From Vicinamibacterales bacterium (lineage in GTDB: Bacteria; Acidobacteriota; Vicinamibacteria; Vicinamibacterales; 2-12-FULL-66-21): 43,792 nucleotides of DNA. The position numbers and the translations under genes were made by a program. The stretch is taken from positions 296,549 through 340,340 of the forward strand of contig DASSPH010000069.1 in the NCBI GenBank assembly GCA_035699745.1. The letters are read 5' to 3'. Shown here piece after piece: positions 20,923-32,864 of the stretch (within the stretch, counting starts at the first letter, position 1; each line of letters begins with the position of its first letter). The notes under the pieces are model-generated. The model made no database searches, was not told where the DNA came from, and was given only the letters and a program-made list of their open reading frames with translations.

Positions 20923-21300
20923 ATGCGCACCCCGACCCCGACGCTGACCCCGCAGGAGCTCGCCATCATGAAAGTGGTCTGGCGGCTCGAAAGCGCCACC
21001 GTGCGCGACATCTACGAGCAGCTGCGCGAGAACCGCGACGTGGCCTACACCACCGTGCTGACGATGATGAAGATCCTCGAGCAGAAGGGCTACGTGAAGA
21101 AGACGCGCGCCGACCGCGCCTTCCTCTACCGCCCGGCGCGGCCGCGCCAGCAGGTGCTCGGCGGCATGGTCCGCGAGTTCATCGACCGGGTCTTCGACGG
21201 GGCGTCGCGGCCGATGCTCCTGCACCTGGTGAAAGAGACGAAGCTGAGCGACAAGGAGCGCCGCGCGCTGCTGCGCGCCATCGAGGAGGTGGAGGAATGA
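20923..21300 (+). CDS. BlaI/MecI/CopY family repressor
   Basis: Winged-helix repressor of 125 residues: LTPQELAIMKVVWRLESATVRDIYEQL, then AYTTVLTMMKILEQKGYVKK with the recognition helix, the wing (RADRAFLYRPA) and a C-terminal dimerisation helix pair. The start at 20923 is required to include the conserved LTPQEL; it directly follows the operator and has no Shine-Dalgarno. BlaI proteins are inactivated when the partner BlaR1 peptidase is triggered. The stop overlaps the partner's ATG (ATGA, 21297-21300), so the two are coupled. No beta-lactamase gene is seen, so the regulon is unknown. Confidence 0.94.
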   Translation: MRTPTPTLTPQELAIMKVVWRLESATVRDIYEQLRENRDVAYTTVLTMMKILEQKGYVKKTRADRAFLYRPARPRQQVLGGMVREFIDRVFDGASRPMLLHLVKETKLSDKERRALLRAIEEVEE

Positions 21301-22973
21301 TGGTCGCCGCCAACTTCATTGCCTACGTCGCGCAGGTCGCGCTGGTTGTCTTCGTGTGCGCGGGGTTGCCGCGGGTGCTCGGTCTTCGCGCCGCGGGCGT
21401 GCATTACGCGTTCTGGCGCCTGGTGCTGCTCGTCTGCCTGGCGCTGCCCCTCGTCCAGCCCTGGCGGCCGCACGAGATGACTTTCGTCCCCGACGGGGCG
21501 GGAGCGGCGGGCGTCGCAACCGCGCCGGTGAACTTTTCCGGGGTCCCGGACGCGCCGCCTCCGCCGCCGCCCTTCGACTGGGGTTTCCCACTTCAGATCG
21601 TCATCCTGGCGGGCATCGGCATGCGGCTGGGATGGATGGCGATCGGCGTTGCCCGGCTCGAAGCGCTGCGGCGCCGCAGCGGAACGCCTGCGCTCGGCTT
21701 CGACGATCTGCAGGAGGCGATCGGCATCCGGGCGCCGATTCTCTGGTCGCCGCACGTGCGGCATCCGGTGACGTTCGGACTGCTGCGGCCCGTCGTGCTG
21801 CTGCCGATCGCGCTGAAGTCCGTCGACCACGCCGCCCAGCGTGCCGTCGTCGCGCACGAGCTGCATCACGTCAAGCGCCGCGACTGGGCGTGGGTCATCG
21901 GCGAGGAGATCGTCCGCTCGATCTTCTGGTTCCATCCGGCGATGTGGTGGCTGATCTCGCGCGTCCAGCTCGCGCGCGAGACCGTCGTCGACGAGCTGTC
22001 GATTCTGGTCACCAACGCGCGGCGCACCTATCTGGATACGCTCCTGGCGTTCGCCGACGACACCGGCCTGCGCTCGTCAGCCGCGTTCTCGGCGCGCCGT
22101 CATCTGTTCCATCGGGTCATGCTGCTGTCAAAGGAGGGTGGAATGTCTTCGAGCCGCATCGCCGTCGTCTCGGGCGCGCTGGTCGTCGCGCTCGGCGCCG
22201 GCACGCTGGGCGCCGTCAGGGCGTTTCCGCTGCATGGACCGGGGGCGCCGATCGCCGGCGACCCGCAGGTGCAGAGGCCGCCGCGCGATCCGCTGTCGCC
22301 CGCCACGTATCACCGCCAGGCGGTCGAATACTGGGAGAAGGCGGAAAAGGACAGTTCGCTGACGCCCGACCAGCGGCTGGACCTGATCCAGAAGGGGATC
22401 GCCGCCGAGGATCGCGCGCTGGCGCTGAATCCCGACTACGTCGAGGCGATGATCTACAAGAACATCCTGCTGCGAATGCAGGCGCTGATGGTCAGCGACG
22501 CGGACGAACAGCGGCGCCTGATCGAGGAAGCGAACGCGCTGCGCGCCCGCGCGATCGAGCTGCGCAAGGCGCAGGGGCTGCCGGAAGGCGGCTGGGCCGG
22601 CGGTCCTCCTCCCCCGCCGCCGCCTCCGCCGCCGTCCGCCCCCTCGTTCATGAGCGACGAGTACAAGCTGGCGCTGGAGACTTACAAACCGCTGCGCATC
22701 GGCGGTGAGCTCAAGCCGCCGATGAAAATCAAGGACGTGAAGCCGCTCTATCCGCCGATCGCCCAGTCAGCGCGCGTCCAGGGTGTCGTGATCGTGGAGG
22801 CCATCATCGATCCGGCCGGCCATGTGGCGGCATCGCGCGTGCTGCGGTCGATTCCTCTGCTGGACGAGGCGGCGCTCGCCGCGGTCGGCCAGTGGGAGTT
22901 CACCCCGACGCTGCTGAACGGCCAGCCGAGCGCGGTCATGATGACCGTGACCGTCAACTTCACGCTGCAGTAA
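21297..22973 (+). CDS. BlaR1-type M56 peptidase fused to a TonB C-terminal domain
   Basis: Membrane zinc peptidase of 558 residues that should relieve BlaI repression. Membrane helices lie at about 8-28, 36-54 and 98-120; the cytoplasmic M56 peptidase domain has HELHH (H187, E188, H191) and the downstream E in LARETVVDE. A fourth helix is at about 285-305. The outer part differs from classical BlaR1: instead of a penicillin-binding sensor it has a helical, TPR-like stretch (about 325-425), a run of ten prolines (about 436-446) and a TonB-type C-terminal domain (PPMKIKDVKPLYPPIAQSAR to VTVNFTLQ). TonB domains contact outer-membrane receptors in the periplasm, so the sensor may respond to envelope state; this is inference. 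It faces the VWFA gene tail-to-tail with 9 bp between. Confidence 0.9.
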   Translation: MMVAANFIAYVAQVALVVFVCAGLPRVLGLRAAGVHYAFWRLVLLVCLALPLVQPWRPHEMTFVPDGAGAAGVATAPVNFSGVPDAPPPPPPFDWGFPLQIVILAGIGMRLGWMAIGVARLEALRRRSGTPALGFDDLQEAIGIRAPILWSPHVRHPVTFGLLRPVVLLPIALKSVDHAAQRAVVAHELHHVKRRDWAWVIGEEIVRSIFWFHPAMWWLISRVQLARETVVDELSILVTNARRTYLDTLLAFADDTGLRSSAAFSARRHLFHRVMLLSKEGGMSSSRIAVVSGALVVALGAGTLGAVRAFPLHGPGAPIAGDPQVQRPPRDPLSPATYHRQAVEYWEKAEKDSSLTPDQRLDLIQKGIAAEDRALALNPDYVEAMIYKNILLRMQALMVSDADEQRRLIEEANALRARAIELRKAQGLPEGGWAGGPPPPPPPPPPSAPSFMSDEYKLALETYKPLRIGGELKPPMKIKDVKPLYPPIAQSARVQGVVIVEAIIDPAGHVAASRVLRSIPLLDEAALAAVGQWEFTPTLLNGQPSAVMMTVTVNFTLQ

Positions 22974-25665: not shown

Positions 25666-26220
25666 ATGAAAGCTCAACTGTTCGCCTGCGGACTGGCGCT
25701 GATGCTCGCGCTGCCCGCGACCGCGTCAGCGCAGCCGCGCATGCCGCACGAGGGGGCCAGCGCCGTCGGCGGCGAAGTCGGCATCTTCCTGCCGCGGGAG
25801 GATGCGCTGAAGATGGGACCCGTACTGGAGGGCTTCTTCGAGCACTACCTCACCGCCCGCGAGAGCCTGCGGGTCGGGATCGGCTGGATGAATCCGAAAT
25901 GGGAGCCGGAGGACAGCGACTCGCTGCGGCAGGTCCGCATCGGCGCCGATCTGGTGCACAACTGGGAAGGGGGGGCCGTGCACCCGTACGTCGGCGCGGG
26001 ACTGGGCGCGTACTTCCTGCAGTTCCGCGACAACGGCCAGAATCTCGGCGACAGCGAGACGAAGTTCGGCGGCAATATTTTCGGCGGCGTGGAGTACTTC
26101 ACCTCGGACACGTTTGCGGTGAAGGGGGAGGCGCGCTATCACATCGTGCCGAAGATCGACACGTTCAATCTCAACCCATCAGGACTGTCGCTGACGTTCG
26201 GCGTGAAGACGTACTTCTGA
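25666..26220 (+). CDS. small outer-membrane beta-barrel protein
   Basis: Predicted 184-residue exported protein. The signal peptide is FACGLALMLALPATASA with cleavage near residue 22. The mature part alternates polar and hydrophobic residues with glycine/aromatic strand ends (VHPYVGAGLGAYFLQF, NIFGGVEYFTSDTFAVKGEARYHIV, LSLTFGVKTYF), ending in a C-terminal Phe, as in OmpA/OmpW-like 8-strand barrels. AGGAGG at 25650-25655 lies about 10 bases before ATG 25666; a GTG just before it is also possible. The 3' end overlaps a minus-strand small gene by 42 bp. Specific function unknown. Confidence 0.85.
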   Translation: MKAQLFACGLALMLALPATASAQPRMPHEGASAVGGEVGIFLPREDALKMGPVLEGFFEHYLTARESLRVGIGWMNPKWEPEDSDSLRQVRIGADLVHNWEGGAVHPYVGAGLGAYFLQFRDNGQNLGDSETKFGGNIFGGVEYFTSDTFAVKGEARYHIVPKIDTFNLNPSGLSLTFGVKTYF

Positions 26221-26397
26221 CGGGGGCGTCAGGCGGCGAGCGTCGGGAATGTTCTTCCCGTTCTCGTGTGTGTCAATCTGGCAGGTGGCTTCGCGCTCGT
26301 CGACGAGCGTGATCACCGTGCCGTCGTAGGTCTCGTAGACGCCTGCCACGCACCCGCACGGCAGCACGTGGCTGGTGAGCCCGCGGAGTATTCGCAC
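26179..26397 (-). CDS. small conserved-looking Cys protein
   Basis: Short protein of 72 residues beginning at GTG 26397: an opening VLPCGCVAGVYETYDGTVIT, then a spaced Cys and His (A-T-C-Q-I-D-T-H-E). The C-G-C pair plus the later Cys and His could bind a metal. I recall similar small hypothetical proteins in acidobacterial genomes but cannot name a family. The last ~20 residues look less conserved and the 3' end overlaps the outer-membrane gene by 42 bp. The start codon falls in the loop of a strong hairpin whose stem contains the only Shine-Dalgarno-like GGAG, so translation may be structure-controlled. Confidence 0.55.
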   Translation of the reverse strand: MRILRGLTSHVLPCGCVAGVYETYDGTVITLVDEREATCQIDTHENGKNIPDARRLTPPSEVRLHAERQRQS

Positions 26398-26427
26398 GTC
26401 GTGTTTAGACTCCGCGGGCTCGCCGGC
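26371..26427. promoter_or_regulatory. 19-bp hairpin between divergent small gene and kinase-like gene
   Basis: Arms at 26371-26389 and 26409-26427 pair over 19 positions: 13 central pairs (GAGCCCGCGGAGT and its complement) are perfect, and the remaining six pair with two G-U wobbles in the plus-strand RNA. The loop is 19 bases. It ends 13 bases before ATG 26441 on the plus strand and surrounds the GTG start of the small gene on the minus strand. It may be a terminator, an attenuator or a protein-binding palindrome; no T-run follows on either strand, arguing against a simple terminator. Confidence 0.6.
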
Positions 26428-26440
26428 GGTTTAATCCCCG

Positions 26441-27472
26441 ATGCCAAGTGAGGTTTTGTCCTACATCGCCTACGCGGCTGCCGGCGCGGCCGCGGCGCTG
26501 TTCGGGCTGCGTCTCTTCTGGCGCACGCTTGGCTACTACAAGGTGAAGAAGGCGGGACCTCGGCCGCTGTTCGGCGTGCGCCATCGTCTCTGGCGGGATC
26601 CGGGCGCGGTCGAATCGCTGGATCTGATCGCCGGTCCGGGCGGCCCGTCCCAGGCGCCGGCGGCGCCGTATCGCTTCATCGAAGAGCACTCGAGCGGCAC
26701 GCAGCCCTGCGTCTCGGTGCGCGATGCGAATGGACGGCGCTGGCGCGTGAAGTGGGGGCCCGAAGTGCCGTGCGAGACGTTCGCCGTGCGGCTGGCGTGG
26801 GCGTGCGGCTACTTCGCCGAGGTGACGCATCGCGTCGCCGCCGGGCGCGTCGAGGAGGCGCGCGCGCTCACCCGCGCGGCGTCCTGCCTGGACGAACACG
26901 GCGCGTTCGTCGACGCGCGCTTCGAGCTCGACGATCCGGAAGTGCTGAAGCTGTTCGAGGAACACAGCTGGTCGTGGACGGACAATCCGTTCCTCGGCAC
27001 GCGCGAGCTGGCCGGACTGAAGATCCTGCTGATGCTGATCTCGAACTGGGACAACAAGGATCAGCGCGACGTCGCGCGCGGATCGAACACCGCGATCTAC
27101 GTGACCCGCGTGTCGCGCTGGCGCCGCGAAGCGCAGTACCTGATTGTCGACTGGGGCGGGTCGATGGGCCGGTGGGGCAACACCGTCGTCACGCGCGGGC
27201 GCTGGGATGCGGCGGGCTTCGCGGCGCAGACGCCGAGCTTCGTCACGGGAGTGACCAGCGGCTACGTGCAGTTCGGTTATACCGGCCAGCGGACCGGCGA
27301 CGCGCGCGCCAACATCACGCCGGAGGATGCGCGGTGGCTGTGCCGCTACCTCGGACGCGTCACCGACGCGCAGCTGCGCGCCGCGCTGCGCGCCAGCGGG
27401 GCGACGCCGGAAGAGGAGGAGTCATTCACCGCCTCGCTGCGCTCGCGCATCGAGCAGCTGCGCGCCGTGTGA
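26441..27472 (+). CDS. membrane-anchored protein with protein-kinase-like motifs
   Basis: Protein of 343 residues that I cannot assign to a named family. An N-terminal membrane helix (about 8-26, YIAYAAAGAAAALFGLRLF) is followed by a basic stretch and a globular domain. Motifs in order resemble atypical kinases: a strand with lysine (R-R-W-R-V-K-W-G, K104), a helix with acidic residue (E112 in CETFAVRLAWACGY), an Asp/Asn-rich loop (SNWDNKDQRD, 201-210, then N216), and a DFG-like turn (YLIVDWGGSMG, D237). HipA, CotH and FAM20 kinases share this general order, but the sequence similarity is slight and no substrate is evident. ATG 26441 lies just after the hairpin with no Shine-Dalgarno. It faces hrpB tail-to-tail. 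Confidence 0.75.
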   Translation: MPSEVLSYIAYAAAGAAAALFGLRLFWRTLGYYKVKKAGPRPLFGVRHRLWRDPGAVESLDLIAGPGGPSQAPAAPYRFIEEHSSGTQPCVSVRDANGRRWRVKWGPEVPCETFAVRLAWACGYFAEVTHRVAAGRVEEARALTRAASCLDEHGAFVDARFELDDPEVLKLFEEHSWSWTDNPFLGTRELAGLKILLMLISNWDNKDQRDVARGSNTAIYVTRVSRWRREAQYLIVDWGGSMGRWGNTVVTRGRWDAAGFAAQTPSFVTGVTSGYVQFGYTGQRTGDARANITPEDARWLCRYLGRVTDAQLRAALRASGATPEEEESFTASLRSRIEQLRAV

Positions 27473-27502
27473 AAGCGGCAAGCGGCGTGCGGAAGGCGCC
27501 GA

Positions 27503-27517
27503 GCGGAACCGTTCCGC
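27503..27517. terminator. short palindrome between convergent genes
   Basis: GCGGAAC (27503-27509) and GTTCCGC (27511-27517) are exact complements around one base. It lies in the 90-bp gap between the kinase-like gene and hrpB, which converge. As RNA the one-base centre would force opening of inner pairs, leaving about five, and no T-run follows, so it is only a possible bidirectional terminator. Confidence 0.3.
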
Positions 27518-27562
27518 GATCTGTGTGAACTCGGTGCGAGCGTGACAGCGCCGCGCCCGAGA

Positions 27563-29869
27563 TCAGTGACGGGGTTTGGCCCGCGCCGTCGCGGGAGCGG
27601 TCCACGGATCCTCGGGCCAGGGATGCCGCGGGTAGCGTCCGCGCAGCTCCTTGCGGACGTCCTGATACGTCGTGTTCCAGAAGCTGCGCAGGTCGCGCGT
27701 GGTCTGCACGGCGCGGCCGTTCGGCGCGAGCAATTCGAAGATGACGGGTTCCTGGCGCGGGCCGAGGCGCGGCGATTCGGCGAGACCGAACAGTTCCTGC
27801 AGCTTGACGGCGGCGGAGACCGTGCCGTCTTCGTGGTAGGTCAGACGGGCGGTGCGGCCGCTCGGCACCGGGATCGTCTCCGGCGCGCTGTGCTCCAGGA
27901 CACGCGCGTGCGGCCACTCGAGCGCGGCCCGCAGATCGATCTCGTCGAGACTGCGCCGGCCGGCGGCAGCGGTGCGCACGAGCGACGTCACGTCGGGATC
28001 GAGCGCCGCGAAACGCAGCCGGCGGAGGAGCTGCTCGTCGCGCTCGCTCAGTCCGCGCGCCAGATACGCCCCGGCGAGCAGCCGCGCCGCTTCTTCGGGA
28101 TCGGGCAGTGACGGGCGCTCGGCGATCGGGATGGCACCGTAGCAGGTGCGCTCGACCGCCCGCACACGTCCGGACTCGATCGCGTGCTCCAGCCGGATGT
28201 CCGATGGCTCGAGCCACCCAGGATCGATCGCGCTCGCGATCCGGATCGTCGCCTCCGCCGTCTCACCGCGGCGTCCCGCCTGAACGTCGACGGCGACGAT
28301 GAACGGCGCGTCGCCGACGCCGCTCTCGCGTCCCAGCACGCCGCCATGGCCGGAGGCGAGGAGGAAGCGCGGCGATCCGCGCTCGCGGCGCCTCGCGACC
28401 CGATCGGGGTATCCGCAGAACACGGCGCGCAGGAACGTGTCTTCGTCTTCGCTGACGGGAGACAGGCCCGAGTCGCGCGCGACATCGGCGAGGCGCCTCG
28501 CCACCTCGCGCACGTGCGGCGGCACGAACCGATCGTCGCCCACCGCCGTCAGCAGGTCGCTCGACGTTGTCGCCGGGTGCCGCGGCATCGCATGGCGTTC
28601 CGACAGCAGCGCGCAGGCCAGCGCGACGTCGCGGCGCCCGCCGCCCTCGAGCAGCATCCGCGACAGCCGCGGGTGGAGCGGAATGCGTTTCATCCGCGCC
28701 CCGAGCGGCGTCACCGTGCCGTCGCGTACGGCGCCGAGCTGCGTCAACAGCGCGACGGCGGCTTCGATGCGGTCGCCGCCCGGCGGGTCGAACCACTCGA
28801 ACGTGAACGGACTGCCGCCCCACGCGAGAATGTCGAGCACCGCATCCGAGAGATCGACGCGATGAATCTCCGCTTCGCGGTGCGGCCGCAGCCGATCGGC
28901 GGGGTCCCACAACCGCCGGACACGGCCCGGACCGATGCGTCCGGCCCGCCCGGCGCGCTGATCGGCGGCGTCCGCGGTGATCCGCTCCAGCTCCAGCGAA
29001 TCGATGCCCCGATCCGCGTCGTACCGCGCAATCTTCTGCCAGCCGCTGTCGACGACCGCCGTGACGTCCGGCACCGTGAGCGACGTCTCCGCGATGTTGG
29101 TCGCAAGAACGATGCGGCGGCCGCCGCGCGGCGACATCACCCGGTCCTGTTCGTCGGCCGTCAGCGAGCCGTGCAACGGCAGCACCTCGACACCCGAACC
29201 GGCCGCGGGGCGGACCTCGTTCATCGCGCGCGCGATCTCCCCCGCGCCGGGAAGGAAGCACAACACGCTTCCGCCGCCCTGCAGAAGCGCGGGCGCGGCC
29301 GCGGCGATCGCCTGGCCGGGGCGGTACTCGATGTCGAGCGGATACCCGCGGCCGGGCACGTCGATGCGCGGACAGTCGCCGAGGAAGGCGGCGACCGCGC
29401 CGCCGTCGAGAGTCGCCGACATGACGACGATCCGCAGGTCGTCGCGCGCGCGCCACGCCTGTTTCGCCAGCGCGAGACCGAGGTCGGCGTGAATGCTGCG
29501 CTCGTGAAACTCGTCGATGACGATGGTGGCGACGCCGGCGAGCAGGGGATCCTGCTGGAGGCGGGCCGTGAGGATGCCTTCGGTCGCCAGGATCACCCGC
29601 GTCCCGGCGGTGAACCTGCGCTCGAAACGCACGTGCCAGCCGACCTCACGGCCGAGCATCCATCCGCGCTCGTCGGCGATCCGCCGCGCGATCGCCCGCG
29701 CGGCCATCCGGCGCGGCTGCAGGACGAGCACGACGCCGTCGGCGGCCAGCGCCGGCGGGACGCGCGTGGTCTTCCCGGCGCCGGGGGCGGCAGAGAGGAC
29801 GAGAGCGCGCCGCGATCGCACGGCGTCGAGAATCGCCGGCAGGTGTGCATCGATCGGCAGCGCGTCCAC
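27563..29869 (-). CDS. hrpB: ATP-dependent helicase HrpB
   Basis: DEAH-type RNA helicase of about 768 residues. Walker A is APGAGKTT (28-35), motif II is DEFH (119-122), motif III SAT (151-153), and motif VI QRAGRAGR (304-311). The helicase-associated and HrpB C-terminal domains follow to the end (PRHPWPEDPW, the usual HrpB finish). GTG 29869 is chosen because the conserved D-A-L-P-I-D-A-H-L-P opening follows it; it is 5 bases after the ADOP stop on the same strand. HrpB's physiological role is poorly defined in most bacteria. The close spacing makes it the third gene of a PadR-ADOP-hrpB unit, which may be only a consequence of gene packing. Confidence 0.95.
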   Translation of the reverse strand: MDALPIDAHLPAILDAVRSRRALVLSAAPGAGKTTRVPPALAADGVVLVLQPRRMAARAIARRIADERGWMLGREVGWHVRFERRFTAGTRVILATEGILTARLQQDPLLAGVATIVIDEFHERSIHADLGLALAKQAWRARDDLRIVVMSATLDGGAVAAFLGDCPRIDVPGRGYPLDIEYRPGQAIAAAAPALLQGGGSVLCFLPGAGEIARAMNEVRPAAGSGVEVLPLHGSLTADEQDRVMSPRGGRRIVLATNIAETSLTVPDVTAVVDSGWQKIARYDADRGIDSLELERITADAADQRAGRAGRIGPGRVRRLWDPADRLRPHREAEIHRVDLSDAVLDILAWGGSPFTFEWFDPPGGDRIEAAVALLTQLGAVRDGTVTPLGARMKRIPLHPRLSRMLLEGGGRRDVALACALLSERHAMPRHPATTSSDLLTAVGDDRFVPPHVREVARRLADVARDSGLSPVSEDEDTFLRAVFCGYPDRVARRRERGSPRFLLASGHGGVLGRESGVGDAPFIVAVDVQAGRRGETAEATIRIASAIDPGWLEPSDIRLEHAIESGRVRAVERTCYGAIPIAERPSLPDPEEAARLLAGAYLARGLSERDEQLLRRLRFAALDPDVTSLVRTAAAGRRSLDEIDLRAALEWPHARVLEHSAPETIPVPSGRTARLTYHEDGTVSAAVKLQELFGLAESPRLGPRQEPVIFELLAPNGRAVQTTRDLRSFWNTTYQDVRKELRGRYPRHPWPEDPWTAPATARAKPRH

Positions 29870-29874
29870 GCTGC

Positions 29875-32526
29875 CTATTCTGACCGGAGTGCCGCCGCCG
29901 GATCGATCCGCAGCGCGCGGCGGATCGGCAGGATGTGTGCGCCGAGCGCGACCACCGTCAGCATGACGGCCGCCGCTCCGAACGTCAGCGGGTCGAGCGG
30001 GCTGACGCCGAACACGAGCGTGCCCAGGGACCGCGTCGCGAGCGCAGCCGCGGCCATGCCTGCCGCCACGCCGGCCGCGACCAGTCTCGCGCCGCCCGCC
30101 AGCACGAGCGCCAGCACGTCTCGCCGTTGGGCGCCGAGCGCCACCCGGACGCCCACTTCCCGCGTCCGCTGCGCCACGCCGTGGGAGACGACGCCGTACA
30201 GACCGATGGCCGCGAGAAAGACCGCGACCGCGGCGAACGCGGCCAGCAGACGCATGACGAACTGCCGCTCGGCGGAGGATTTCGCCACCAGCTCCGGCAG
30301 CGTCGCGACGTCGTAGATCGGCACGGATGGATCGAGCGAGCGGAACACGGCGCGGACGGGCGCGACGAGCGTTGCCGGGTCCAGCGTGGCGGACTTCACC
30401 AGCGCCACCAGGAATGAGTCCGTGAACTGCGTCTGCGGCGTGTACATCGCGGGCGCGGGAGACGCGGTGAGATCGTCGTGATGCACGTCTGCCACGACGC
30501 CCACGACGGTCCGCCAGGGTCCGCGCTCGGAATTGCCCATGCGGACCTGCGCGCCGAGCGGGCTGTCGCCCCCCCAGACCTGCCTGGCGGTCGACTCCGA
30601 GATCACCAGCACCGGCTGCGCGGCGGCGGTGTCGGCCTCCGTGAACGTCCGGCCGGCCAGGACCGGAATGCCCATCAACCCCCAGTAGTCCGGCGTGACG
30701 CCGTAGCGCTCGATGCACGGGTCGTCGACCGGATTGGGCTTCATGCGTCCGCTTGCATGGAAGCCGCGGCAGTCGCCGTTGCCGCCGAAGGGCACCTGCC
30801 CCGCGAGCGTGACGGCGTCCACGCCAGGCAGCGCGCGCAGCTGCTGGAGCGCCCGCTCCTGGAACGCGACGACGGCGGAGTCTTCCGCGTAGGCCTGGCC
30901 GACCAGCGAGAATGACAGCGCCAGGATGCGATCGGGGTTGAAGCCCGGATTCGTCTGCACCACCGCGCGGACGGTGCGCAGCATCAGCCCGGCGCCGGCG
31001 AGCAGCACCAGCGCCAGGACGAGGTCCGCGACCACGAGGACCGCTTGCGCGCGAGATCGGCCGCCGACGCTGCCGCGCGAGTCCACCGCCAGCGTCCGCG
31101 GGGCACTCGCCCGGCCCTCGCGCCACGCCGGGACCAGTCCGAAAATCAGGCTGGTCAGAATCGTGAGGCCGGCAGTGAACGCGAGCACGCGTGCGTCGAT
31201 GGCGATATGCGACATCCGCGGCAGCGTCACCGGCGCGAGCGCCGCCACAGCCTCGAGCGATGCGGCGGCAAGCAGCACGCCGGCAACCGCGCCGCCGCCG
31301 GCGAGCAGCAGGCTCTCGGTGAGCAGCTGGCGGACGATCCGGCCGCGGCTGGCGCCGAGCACGGCGCGCAGCGCCAGCTCTCGCCGGCGCGTGACCGCCC
31401 GCGCCAGCAGCAGATTGGCCACGTTCGCACACGCGATCAGCAGCACGAATCCCACGGCTGCGAGCAGCACCAGCAGCGCGCCGCGAACGTTGCCGGTCAG
31501 CGCATCACGCAGCGGGACGACGGCAATGGATCCCGCCTCGTACTCGGAGGGATGCTCGCGCCGCATCTGCTCGCGGATCGCGTTCATCTCGACGCTCGCG
31601 TCGGCGAGCGAGACACCGCGCCTCACCCGCGCGAAGCCGCGCAGGTGCTGGCACCTTCGGCACGAAGAGTCGCCGCCGAGGGCATAGCCGATCGGCGCCC
31701 ACAACTCCGCGGAGGTGTTGTAGAACCGCTCTGCGTCGAGCGGCTCGAACCCGGCCGGCATCACCCCGACGACGCGAAACGCGCGGTCGTTCATCGTGAT
31801 GGTGCGGCCGACGATCGACGGGTCGGCGTTGAATCGGCGCCGCCAGAGCGCGTCGCTCAGCAGCACCACGCGCCAGTGTTCGGGACGATCGTCGTCGGCG
31901 GTGAACCCTCGCCCGAGCGCCGGACGGACCCCCATCATGTCGAAGTAGTTGGCGCTGACGCGGACGGCAGGAAGCCGTTCGGCTTCGCCGTTGGTGACGA
32001 GCGTCGGCAGCCACGCCCGCATCATCGCGAAGCTCTCGATGGCGCGGCTGCGCTCGCGCCAGTCGAGCACGGTCGCGAAGCCGACGCTCGACGCCTGGCC
32101 GTCCGCCGTGCGATCGCCGATGGCGACGAGCCGTTCCGGCTCGGGATACGGCAGCGGCCGCAGCAGGACCGCGTCGACGACGCTGAACATGGCGGTGTTG
32201 GCGCCGATGCCGATGGCAAGCGTCAGCAGCGCGGCGAGCGTGAACCCCGGCGTTCGCCGCAGCATCCGGCTGCCGTAGCGCACGTCCTGGACGAACGTGT
32301 CGACGGGCGGCAGCCCGCGTTGATCGCGCCACGCCTCGGCGATCGGGGCGTCGGCGCCGAGATCGAGGCGGGCGGCGCGCCGGGCGGCGGCGGGATCGAG
32401 GCCGCGGGCGCGATGCTGTGCCTCGAGCATCTCGAGATGGAACGACAGCTCCGTCGAGAGCTCGTCGTCGCCGCGGCCGCGCCCGAGGGCGCCGGCGAGG
32501 CGCGCCAGGAGCTCGCGCAGCGTCAC
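29875..32526 (-). CDS. ADOP-type ABC transporter permease with prefix domain
   Basis: Orphan duplicated permease of about 883 residues. Residues 1-78 are a cytoplasmic prefix of the type D-D-E-L-x-x-E-L-x-F-H-L-E-M with A-A-R-R-A-A-R-L-D-L-G, recognised as a permease prefix domain in acidobacterial proteins. The first MacB/FtsX half begins at QDVRYGSRMLRRTPG with TLAIGIGANTAMFSVVDAVL; the FtsX core has LLIACANVANLLLARAVTRRREL; the second half ends with AAIGLYGVVSHGVAQRTREVGVRVALGAQRRDV and IRRALRIDPAAALRSE. No ATPase is encoded nearby. GTG 32526 overlaps the PadR stop by 4 bases (GTGA). Substrate unknown. Confidence 0.92.
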   Translation of the reverse strand: MTLRELLARLAGALGRGRGDDELSTELSFHLEMLEAQHRARGLDPAAARRAARLDLGADAPIAEAWRDQRGLPPVDTFVQDVRYGSRMLRRTPGFTLAALLTLAIGIGANTAMFSVVDAVLLRPLPYPEPERLVAIGDRTADGQASSVGFATVLDWRERSRAIESFAMMRAWLPTLVTNGEAERLPAVRVSANYFDMMGVRPALGRGFTADDDRPEHWRVVLLSDALWRRRFNADPSIVGRTITMNDRAFRVVGVMPAGFEPLDAERFYNTSAELWAPIGYALGGDSSCRRCQHLRGFARVRRGVSLADASVEMNAIREQMRREHPSEYEAGSIAVVPLRDALTGNVRGALLVLLAAVGFVLLIACANVANLLLARAVTRRRELALRAVLGASRGRIVRQLLTESLLLAGGGAVAGVLLAAASLEAVAALAPVTLPRMSHIAIDARVLAFTAGLTILTSLIFGLVPAWREGRASAPRTLAVDSRGSVGGRSRAQAVLVVADLVLALVLLAGAGLMLRTVRAVVQTNPGFNPDRILALSFSLVGQAYAEDSAVVAFQERALQQLRALPGVDAVTLAGQVPFGGNGDCRGFHASGRMKPNPVDDPCIERYGVTPDYWGLMGIPVLAGRTFTEADTAAAQPVLVISESTARQVWGGDSPLGAQVRMGNSERGPWRTVVGVVADVHHDDLTASPAPAMYTPQTQFTDSFLVALVKSATLDPATLVAPVRAVFRSLDPSVPIYDVATLPELVAKSSAERQFVMRLLAAFAAVAVFLAAIGLYGVVSHGVAQRTREVGVRVALGAQRRDVLALVLAGGARLVAAGVAAGMAAAALATRSLGTLVFGVSPLDPLTFGAAAVMLTVVALGAHILPIRRALRIDPAAALRSE

Positions 32527-32864
32527 GGCGCATCCTCCTGGCCGCCGAGCACGCGCGCCATGATCCCGGCCATGCGCTGCCAGTCCTCCGCTTCGCGCTG
32601 GAGCTGCCTGCGGCCGGTGCGGGTCAGCGAATAGAAGCGGGCGCGTCGGTTGTTCTCGGAGGTGCCCCACTTCGACGCGATCCAGCCGCGCTGCTCGAGC
32701 CGCAGCAGCGCGGGATACAGCGTCCCCTGGTTGAGCTGCAGCGCGCTGTCGGACACCTGCAGCAGCCGCTGCGCGATGCCGTAGCCGTGCAGCGGCCCCA
32801 GGGAGTCCAGGGTCTTCAGCACCATGAGATCGAGCGTGCCCTGCAGAACGTCGGCCTTGCTCAT
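32523..32864 (-). CDS. PadR family transcriptional regulator (acidobacterial type)
   Basis: Winged-helix regulator of 113 residues: SKADVLQGTLDLMVLKTLD, GPLHGYGIAQRL, then NQGTLYPALLRLEQRGWIASKWGTSE, the recognition helix and wing of the acidobacterial PadR subgroup, and a C-terminal W-Q-R-M-A-G-I-M-A-R-V-L helix. I start at ATG 32864, not an in-frame codon 45 bases further upstream, because the family opens with M-S-K-x-D-x-L-Q-G-T-L-D. The ATG overlaps the end of a palindrome, so the repressor probably shuts off itself and the permease. Coupled to the ADOP gene by GTGA overlap. Confidence 0.94.
   Translation of the reverse strand: MSKADVLQGTLDLMVLKTLDSLGPLHGYGIAQRLLQVSDSALQLNQGTLYPALLRLEQRGWIASKWGTSENNRRARFYSLTRTGRRQLQREAEDWQRMAGIMARVLGGQEDAP

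Follow-up and report, generated by a model that had tools for sequence, protein, structure and literature searches.

A conserved gene of Acidobacteriota encoding a predicted membrane-anchored protein with a kinase-like fold

An unassigned gene of a member of the Vicinamibacterales raises the question of whether its product could be an atypical kinase and, if so, on which side of the membrane and on which substrate it might act. The gene (26441-27472, forward strand, stop codon included) is located in a 43,792-nucleotide stretch, called here the window, of contig DASSPH010000069.1. It runs from ATG to TGA and encodes 343 amino acids. The initial annotation had proposed a membrane protein in which a lysine, an Asp/Asn loop and a DFG-type metal site follow each other as in HipA, CotH and FAM20-like kinases.

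The gene is flanked by those of an OMP barrel and HrpB and by a 72-aa open reading frame on the opposite strand; none of these neighbours points to a substrate. The 72-aa frame lies directly upstream (26179-26397, reverse strand) and is without Pfam match at E <= 0.001. The HrpB helicase frame as listed (27563-31432, reverse strand) overlaps that of an ADOP permease (29875-32670, reverse strand), and since the HrpB match begins only at residue 525, the real HrpB start is probably just beyond the end of the permease. No promoter- or terminator-like sites were found by simple patterns in 26150-27650, and no tRNA gene was found in the window. Elsewhere, at 20923-22973 (forward strand), a penicillinase-repressor gene precedes one for a BlaR1-type M56 peptidase fused to a TonB C-terminal domain.

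The gene is conserved. When the window's genome and 59 related ones were searched, 21 of the 60 contained a homologue at E <= 0.001, a few of these matches being weak. With a profile, 70 of 297 phylum genomes gave matches at E <= 0.001 and 33 at E < 1e-70, the weaker ones including longer, distant families. The scan of named genomes yielded 66 loci, 65 of them titled Acidobacteriota and one (L039) Cyanobacteria; the latter title is probably a mislabel, since L039 sits inside the membrane-anchored branch described below. Plasmid and phage records contained no relative at E <= 0.001. Comparison with five orthologues gave dN values of 0.22-0.36 and dS values of 0.72-1.17, indicating purifying selection on the gene. 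Tandem copies of kinase-like genes occur at L065 (5583-7630), L048 (6001-8051) and L046 (5060-6852); the second copy at L065 is of a more distant type, with only 26% identity to the family query.

An alignment of 64 rows (A4) was composed of the window protein and 63 loci, L094, L095 and L096 being left out of the 66 because they are broken or partial. Residues W101, K104, E108, N202, D204, Y233, D237, G239, G243 and W299 are identical in all 64 rows, E108 not being among those named in the initial annotation. E112 is found in 63 rows (the other one is gapped) and K206 in 62, while position 216 is Asn in 58 and Gln in six. The order of residues of the kinase superfamily, that is, Lys, αC Glu, catalytic Asp, Asn and metal Asp, is present in this alignment. 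The pattern exceeds what would be expected by chance. Free variation of K104 and D237 among homologues, which would have spoken against a kinase, was not seen; among the residues that the initial annotation wanted checked, K104, D204 and D237 are invariant and N216 is not.

These residues can be assigned putative roles, all the corresponding segments being on the forward strand. A glycine-rich-like loop, S84-S-G-T-Q-P-C90 (26690-26710), falls in register with the glycine-rich loop of HipA in a low-probability profile alignment. K104 (26750-26752), in the register of the HipA V-K, would be the equivalent of the β3 lysine, and the segment from E108 to E112 (26762-26776) would start the αC-like helix. 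The predicted catalytic loop, N202-W-D204-N-K206-D207 (27044-27061), is assigned by its conservation and by its register with the HipA, CotH and Pkinase profiles, with D204 as candidate catalytic Asp. N216 (27086-27088), a candidate metal-binding Asn, matches the Asn of the same three profiles. Finally, D237-W-G239 (27149-27157; 64/64), in register with the W-D of CotH and the D-F-G of Pkinase, is a putative DFG-like metal-binding motif.

AlphaFold2, run on A4, produced a model with a mean pLDDT of 96.6 and a pTM of 0.92. It shows strands 77-83, 90-94 and 100-105, helix 109-121, and strands 129-138 and 155-163 and continues with helix 188-199 and loop 202-207; D237 comes after two further strands, 217-223 and 229-235. 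This order of strands and helices is kinase-like. Every residue named in the initial annotation is where it had been placed, in the open reading frame as well as in the model: K104 belongs to strand 100-105 and E112 to the next helix, the N202-W-D-N-K-D207 loop comes after helix 188-199, N216 is just ahead of strand 217-223, and D237-W-G-G comes after strand 229-235.

A Foldseek search of the PDB with the window model retrieved seven chains at E <= 0.001, six from Fam20 (4kqa, 4kqb) and one from Rio2. The best solved matches were the Fam20 Golgi casein kinase chains (E 1.2e-4), with modest TM-scores of 0.31-0.39 and rmsd values of 8 to 11. In VIA-align, CtkA was the top match (Z 14.1, rmsd 3.8, 214 aligned residues), followed by Fam20 (Z 12.9; 4.3; 233), PI4KII (Z 12.5; 4.1; 218), actin-fragmin kinase (Z 11.5; 4.2; 228), HipT (Z 11.2; 4.0; 196), HipA (Z 10.9; 4.2; 198) and then kinases of the ATR/mTOR type (Z about 8). 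CotH structures are not among the VIA-align matches listed for the window model, which excludes nothing. Among viral predicted structures, the top matches were parts of long phage proteins, followed by kinases. For the exported member L066, a model built together with 39 relatives (pLDDT 91.8) had CtkA as best match (E 1.7e-6, Z 13.8), and behind it Fam20 (Z 12.2), PI4KII, HipT, HipA and CotH (Z 10.2). A two-lobed kinase-like fold is predicted for both branches of the family, with kinases as the best solved matches. A fold unrelated to kinases, which would have refuted the original proposal, was not what the prediction gave; the solved structures matched include Fam20, CtkA and HipA.

For the family, nothing was found above cut-off in Pfam, NCBIfam, PADLOC or the PDB sequences. 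The window protein itself obtained a single Pfam row (B3, E 0.17), none in NCBIfam and no PDB sequence below E 0.5, and the weak Pfam rows among the 64 members are scattered, the commonest being DUF6544 (4/64, best E 0.0034). The Fam20 model (PF06702) did not match the window protein at E <= 1 or any of the 64 members at 0.5. The models for CotH (PF08757), HipA_C (PF07804), PI3/PI4 kinase (PF00454) and Pkinase (PF00069) matched neither the window protein nor the 64 members. The CotH model does find a separate CotH gene in the window's genome (contig C82). HipA_C was detected in 29 of 99 phylum genomes but not in the window's own, and a search of 149 phylum genomes for PI3_PI4_kinase gave short matches in ten, none of them the window's own. 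The Fam20C model retrieved nothing from 149 phylum genomes, a result that shows no absence because the model was also silent in 14 control genomes.

The family profile was also compared by hhalign with acidobacterial HipA, CotH, Pkinase and APH sets. The probabilities were low (HipA 3.75%, CotH 1.96%, Pkinase 0.63%, APH 0.24%); on the same set-up, two genuine kinase families, CotH and HipA, reached only 4.4% against each other. These low-probability alignments put the S-G-x-Q loop, W-x-V-K and N-x-D...N in register with HipA, N-W-D...N...D with CotH, and D-x-K...N...D-x-G with Pkinase. Among 100 column-permuted profiles, the observed score was reached by none for HipA, one for CotH, four for Pkinase and 12 for APH, the best permuted score for HipA (26.1) being close to the observed one (27.0). 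Reversed profiles scored 17.9 (HipA), 20.2 (CotH), 12.8 (Pkinase) and 13.5 (APH). These results support a relationship with HipA and CotH, lend weak support to one with Pkinase and give none for APH.

Part of the phylum also has a family of longer proteins, of about 560 aa (L021, L249-L273), which is homologous by profile (99.2%, E 1.2e-19) and shows H-x-D-x-x-x-x-N and D-F-G motifs. Its alignment comprised L021 and 21 of the 23 loci tried, out of 30; L274-L278 were left out as weak or short, and L266 and L269 for no special reason. In the 22 rows, the catalytic Asp is present in 21, the Asn and the metal Asp in all 22, and the lysine in no more than 16. For L021, nothing in Pfam scored above cut-off. 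Since N216 is replaced by Gln in six of 64 members and the lysine is present in only 16 of these 22 rows, not every relative need be active.

With respect to the membrane, the initial annotation had described an N-terminal helix followed by basic residues. A simple hydropathy script predicts a transmembrane helix at about residues 5-23 (26453-26509, forward strand), within helix 2-38 of the model, and the basic segment after it, at about residues 27-41 (26519-26563, forward strand), points to an N-out/C-in orientation. A quick tree of the 64 rows, with midpoint root and SH-aLRT as only support, groups 17 membrane-anchored members, including the window protein, with a support of 96, and joins them to the lipobox protein L046 at 100. 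Each of the 17 members of this branch has the helix with basic residues behind it, and each carries more net positive charge on the C-terminal than on the N-terminal side of the hydrophobic core. The remaining 47 members, judged by eye, mostly carry signal peptides or lipoboxes, the lipobox pattern also matching L037 and L047 of the anchored branch; in L052 and L091 the assigned starts probably miss the signal peptide. In these 47 the separation by charge is less clean, with more charge before the core in 29, after it in 14 and equal charge in four. The family appears to have a second, exported-looking branch, which, like its gene context, was not visible to the initial annotation.

According to the positive-inside rule, the charge bias found in 17 of 17 members would place the domain of the window protein in the cytosol. 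Cysteine content is in line with this: anchored members have 3-7 cysteines per domain, whereas exported relatives never exceed 3 and have a median of 0. All 17 anchored members, but 0 of the 47 exported members, carry Cys at position 90 within the glycine-rich-like loop; for position 149 the counts are 15 of 17 and 0 of 47, respectively. The remaining cysteine columns differ from member to member in the anchored branch, which suits a reducing compartment. The cytoplasmic facing suggested earlier is favoured by charge bias and cysteine content, and the domain is probably cytosolic.

The genes around the two branches were also compared. The exported-branch set consisted of 49 loci, including L094 and L095 and excluding L096. 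Within 3 kb of them, PPK1 was found at 11, DUF4956/MgtC at 14, a PF03162-type phosphatase at 12, PLD-like genes at 20, an ABC exporter at 20 and a metallophosphoesterase at 16, with at least one of these six at 40 of the 49, counts that are not independent because the loci are related to each other. We take Siw14 to be a named relative of the PF03162-type phosphatase. The representative ABC exporter resembles MsbA, yet falls below curated cut-offs. As controls, 139 loci around other kinases were used (486 kb versus 501 kb, with shorter flanks of 1.5 kb); DUF4956 was found in two, a metallophosphoesterase in three and an ABC gene in one, and the DUF4956 and metallophosphoesterase cases all belong to the 29 CotH loci.

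The 16 other loci of the window branch have the phosphatase near two, a metallophosphoesterase (25% identity) near two, ExoIII near five and HrpB near four. The ABC exporter gene is near none of them, and PPK1 and DUF4956 were found within 6 kb of 0 of the 16, several contigs being shorter than this reach. The window's genome gave no PPK1 match, in a search that was positive in seven of 14 control genomes. A polyphosphate link for the window gene, which had been considered, was weakened by these results, and the link was retained only for the exported branch. The same genome also carries an exported-type paralogue (L107, contig C10, 2539-10316), 63% identical to the lipobox-bearing L018. The order of genes on contig C10 is DnaE, the paralogue, DUF4956/MgtC, PLD-like and metallophosphoesterase, followed on the opposite strand by a gene for a 191-aa secreted-looking protein.

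The reading that we favour, with somewhat more confidence than doubt, is that the gene encodes an active, ATP-using atypical kinase, tethered to the membrane and facing the cytosol, with a protein hydroxyl as likely target. What the analysis shows is conservation of the gene and of its motif residues, a predicted fold, and the pattern of helix and charge; binding of ATP and metal, activity, side of the membrane and substrate are inferred. The protein would be a single-pass membrane protein whose soluble domain, with a protein-kinase-like fold of the Fam20/CotH/HipA/PI4K group, most likely lies on the cytosolic side. Mg- or Mn-ATP would be bound between the two lobes, its phosphates held by K104 and an αC glutamate (E112 or E108) and the metal by N216 and D237. 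D204 would act as catalytic base, and the phosphoryl group would pass to a membrane-proximal target, most likely a protein hydroxyl. Within a wider family of Acidobacteriota, the gene belongs to the anchored branch, while the other branch looks exported.

Other readings have to be weighed against this one. It is very improbable that the protein is no kinase at all and resembles kinases in a few motifs by chance, since kinases are the best solved folds found with the confident models of either branch, even if no curated kinase model matches and profile-profile probabilities are low. A membrane-bound lipid kinase, phosphoinositide-like or other, in which the anchor puts the active site at the bilayer and a lipid head group is the substrate, seems unlikely. 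The domain directly follows the membrane helix, type II PI4K aligns about as well as Fam20 (Z 12.5, rmsd 4.1, 218 residues), and the MsbA-like ABC exporter, below curated cut-offs as it is, lies within 3 kb of 20 of the 49 exported loci; however, the scores of CtkA and Fam20 equal or exceed that of PI4K (those of HipT and HipA are lower), and no ABC gene is near any of the 16 other window-branch loci.

Still less is to be expected of a kinase-fold enzyme with another chemistry, such as AMPylation or glutamylation, or of a nucleotide-binding pseudokinase that regulates a partner. Kinase-like folds with such activities are described in a passage of PMC10870513, and the Gln at position 216 in six of 64 members would fit; but K, E, D and D-x-G are retained although a pseudokinase could dispense with them, an argument that is silent on other transferase chemistry. 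The remaining alternative is about membrane side alone and overlaps the other readings: the whole family could be extracytosolic, the window protein being a signal-anchor protein with a periplasmic domain, perhaps with a C90-C149 disulphide. The lipobox of the tree neighbour L046, the signal peptides apparent in most other rows and the conservation of C90 (17/17) and C149 (15/17) would agree with it. The charge bias is opposite to that expected in 17 of 17 members and the other cysteine columns vary in the manner of a reducing compartment, so we regard it as rather unlikely.

Returning to the cytosolic kinase that we favour, a broader and quite speculative extension, to which we give little credence, is that of an acidobacterial kinase family acting in two compartments. 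The exported branch would work in a phosphate-polymer system with polyphosphate kinase, DUF4956/MgtC and the PF03162-type phosphatase, perhaps using a donor other than cytosolic ATP, and the window branch would be an internalised, cytosolic copy with C90 as a redox control point. The ATP source of extracytoplasmic CotH kinases is called an unanswered question in a passage of PMC7821199, and the genes around the exported branch offer a way to test where extracytoplasmic kinases obtain their phosphoryl donor. The window branch, in turn, offers a simple soluble-domain target for activity assays. With this family, which the present searches found in Acidobacteriota only, the bacterial atypical kinases gain a further group, one branch of which looks exported.

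Among known systems, CotH resembles the family in that the catalytic loop and the metal-Asp region fall in register, in a low-probability alignment; in fold comparison it gave a Z of 10.2 for the exported model but is not among the matches listed for the window model. It differs in that the CotH model does not recognise the window protein or the 64 members. Some CotH loci of Acidobacteriota have neighbours in common with the exported-branch loci, namely DUF4956 (2 of 29 CotH loci) and metallophosphoesterase (3 of 29). A passage of PMC7112168 describes CotH, polyphosphate polymerase and DUF4956 as neighbours in Pel clusters of Gram-positive bacteria, and the PPK1 and DUF4956 genes beside exported members parallel this arrangement. 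CotH proteins with SH3 domains are mentioned in PMC8250860. HipA, HipT and CtkA are alike in fold, CtkA with the highest Z, and a low-probability alignment puts the S-G-x-Q loop, V-K and D...N in register with HipA; unlike them, the window protein has an N-terminal membrane anchor and no HipA_C match. An adjacent antitoxin gene served as sampling criterion for HipA/HipT in a passage of PMC8262856, and no recognised antitoxin was found among the flanks of the window gene that were tested, which include the 72-aa frame without Pfam match. Type II phosphatidylinositol 4-kinases have a similar fold (Z 12.5), whereas the window protein has no PI3_PI4_kinase match and is anchored by a single N-terminal helix.

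Fam20A/B/C are similar by fold, as the best Foldseek matches and with Z up to 12.9, but not by any Pfam Fam20C match. In a sugar-bound Fam20 structure, according to PMC5865150, Asp299 aligns with the Asp of the kinase HRD motif. In contrast to the Fam20 kinases of the secretory pathway, the window protein is bacterial and its branch probably faces the cytosol. No description of the family was found among open-licence papers by title, start of abstract or passages, and it may already be catalogued among the 32 extra families of KINtaro (PMC10870513). By predicted fold and motifs, the family belongs to the kinase-like superfamily; since the Fam20, CotH, HipA, PI3/PI4 and Pkinase sequence tests failed, it is filed as a new, unnamed kinase-like family. 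With 13 novel kinase-like families reported in a Legionella survey (PMC9758233), one more unnamed family is no great surprise.
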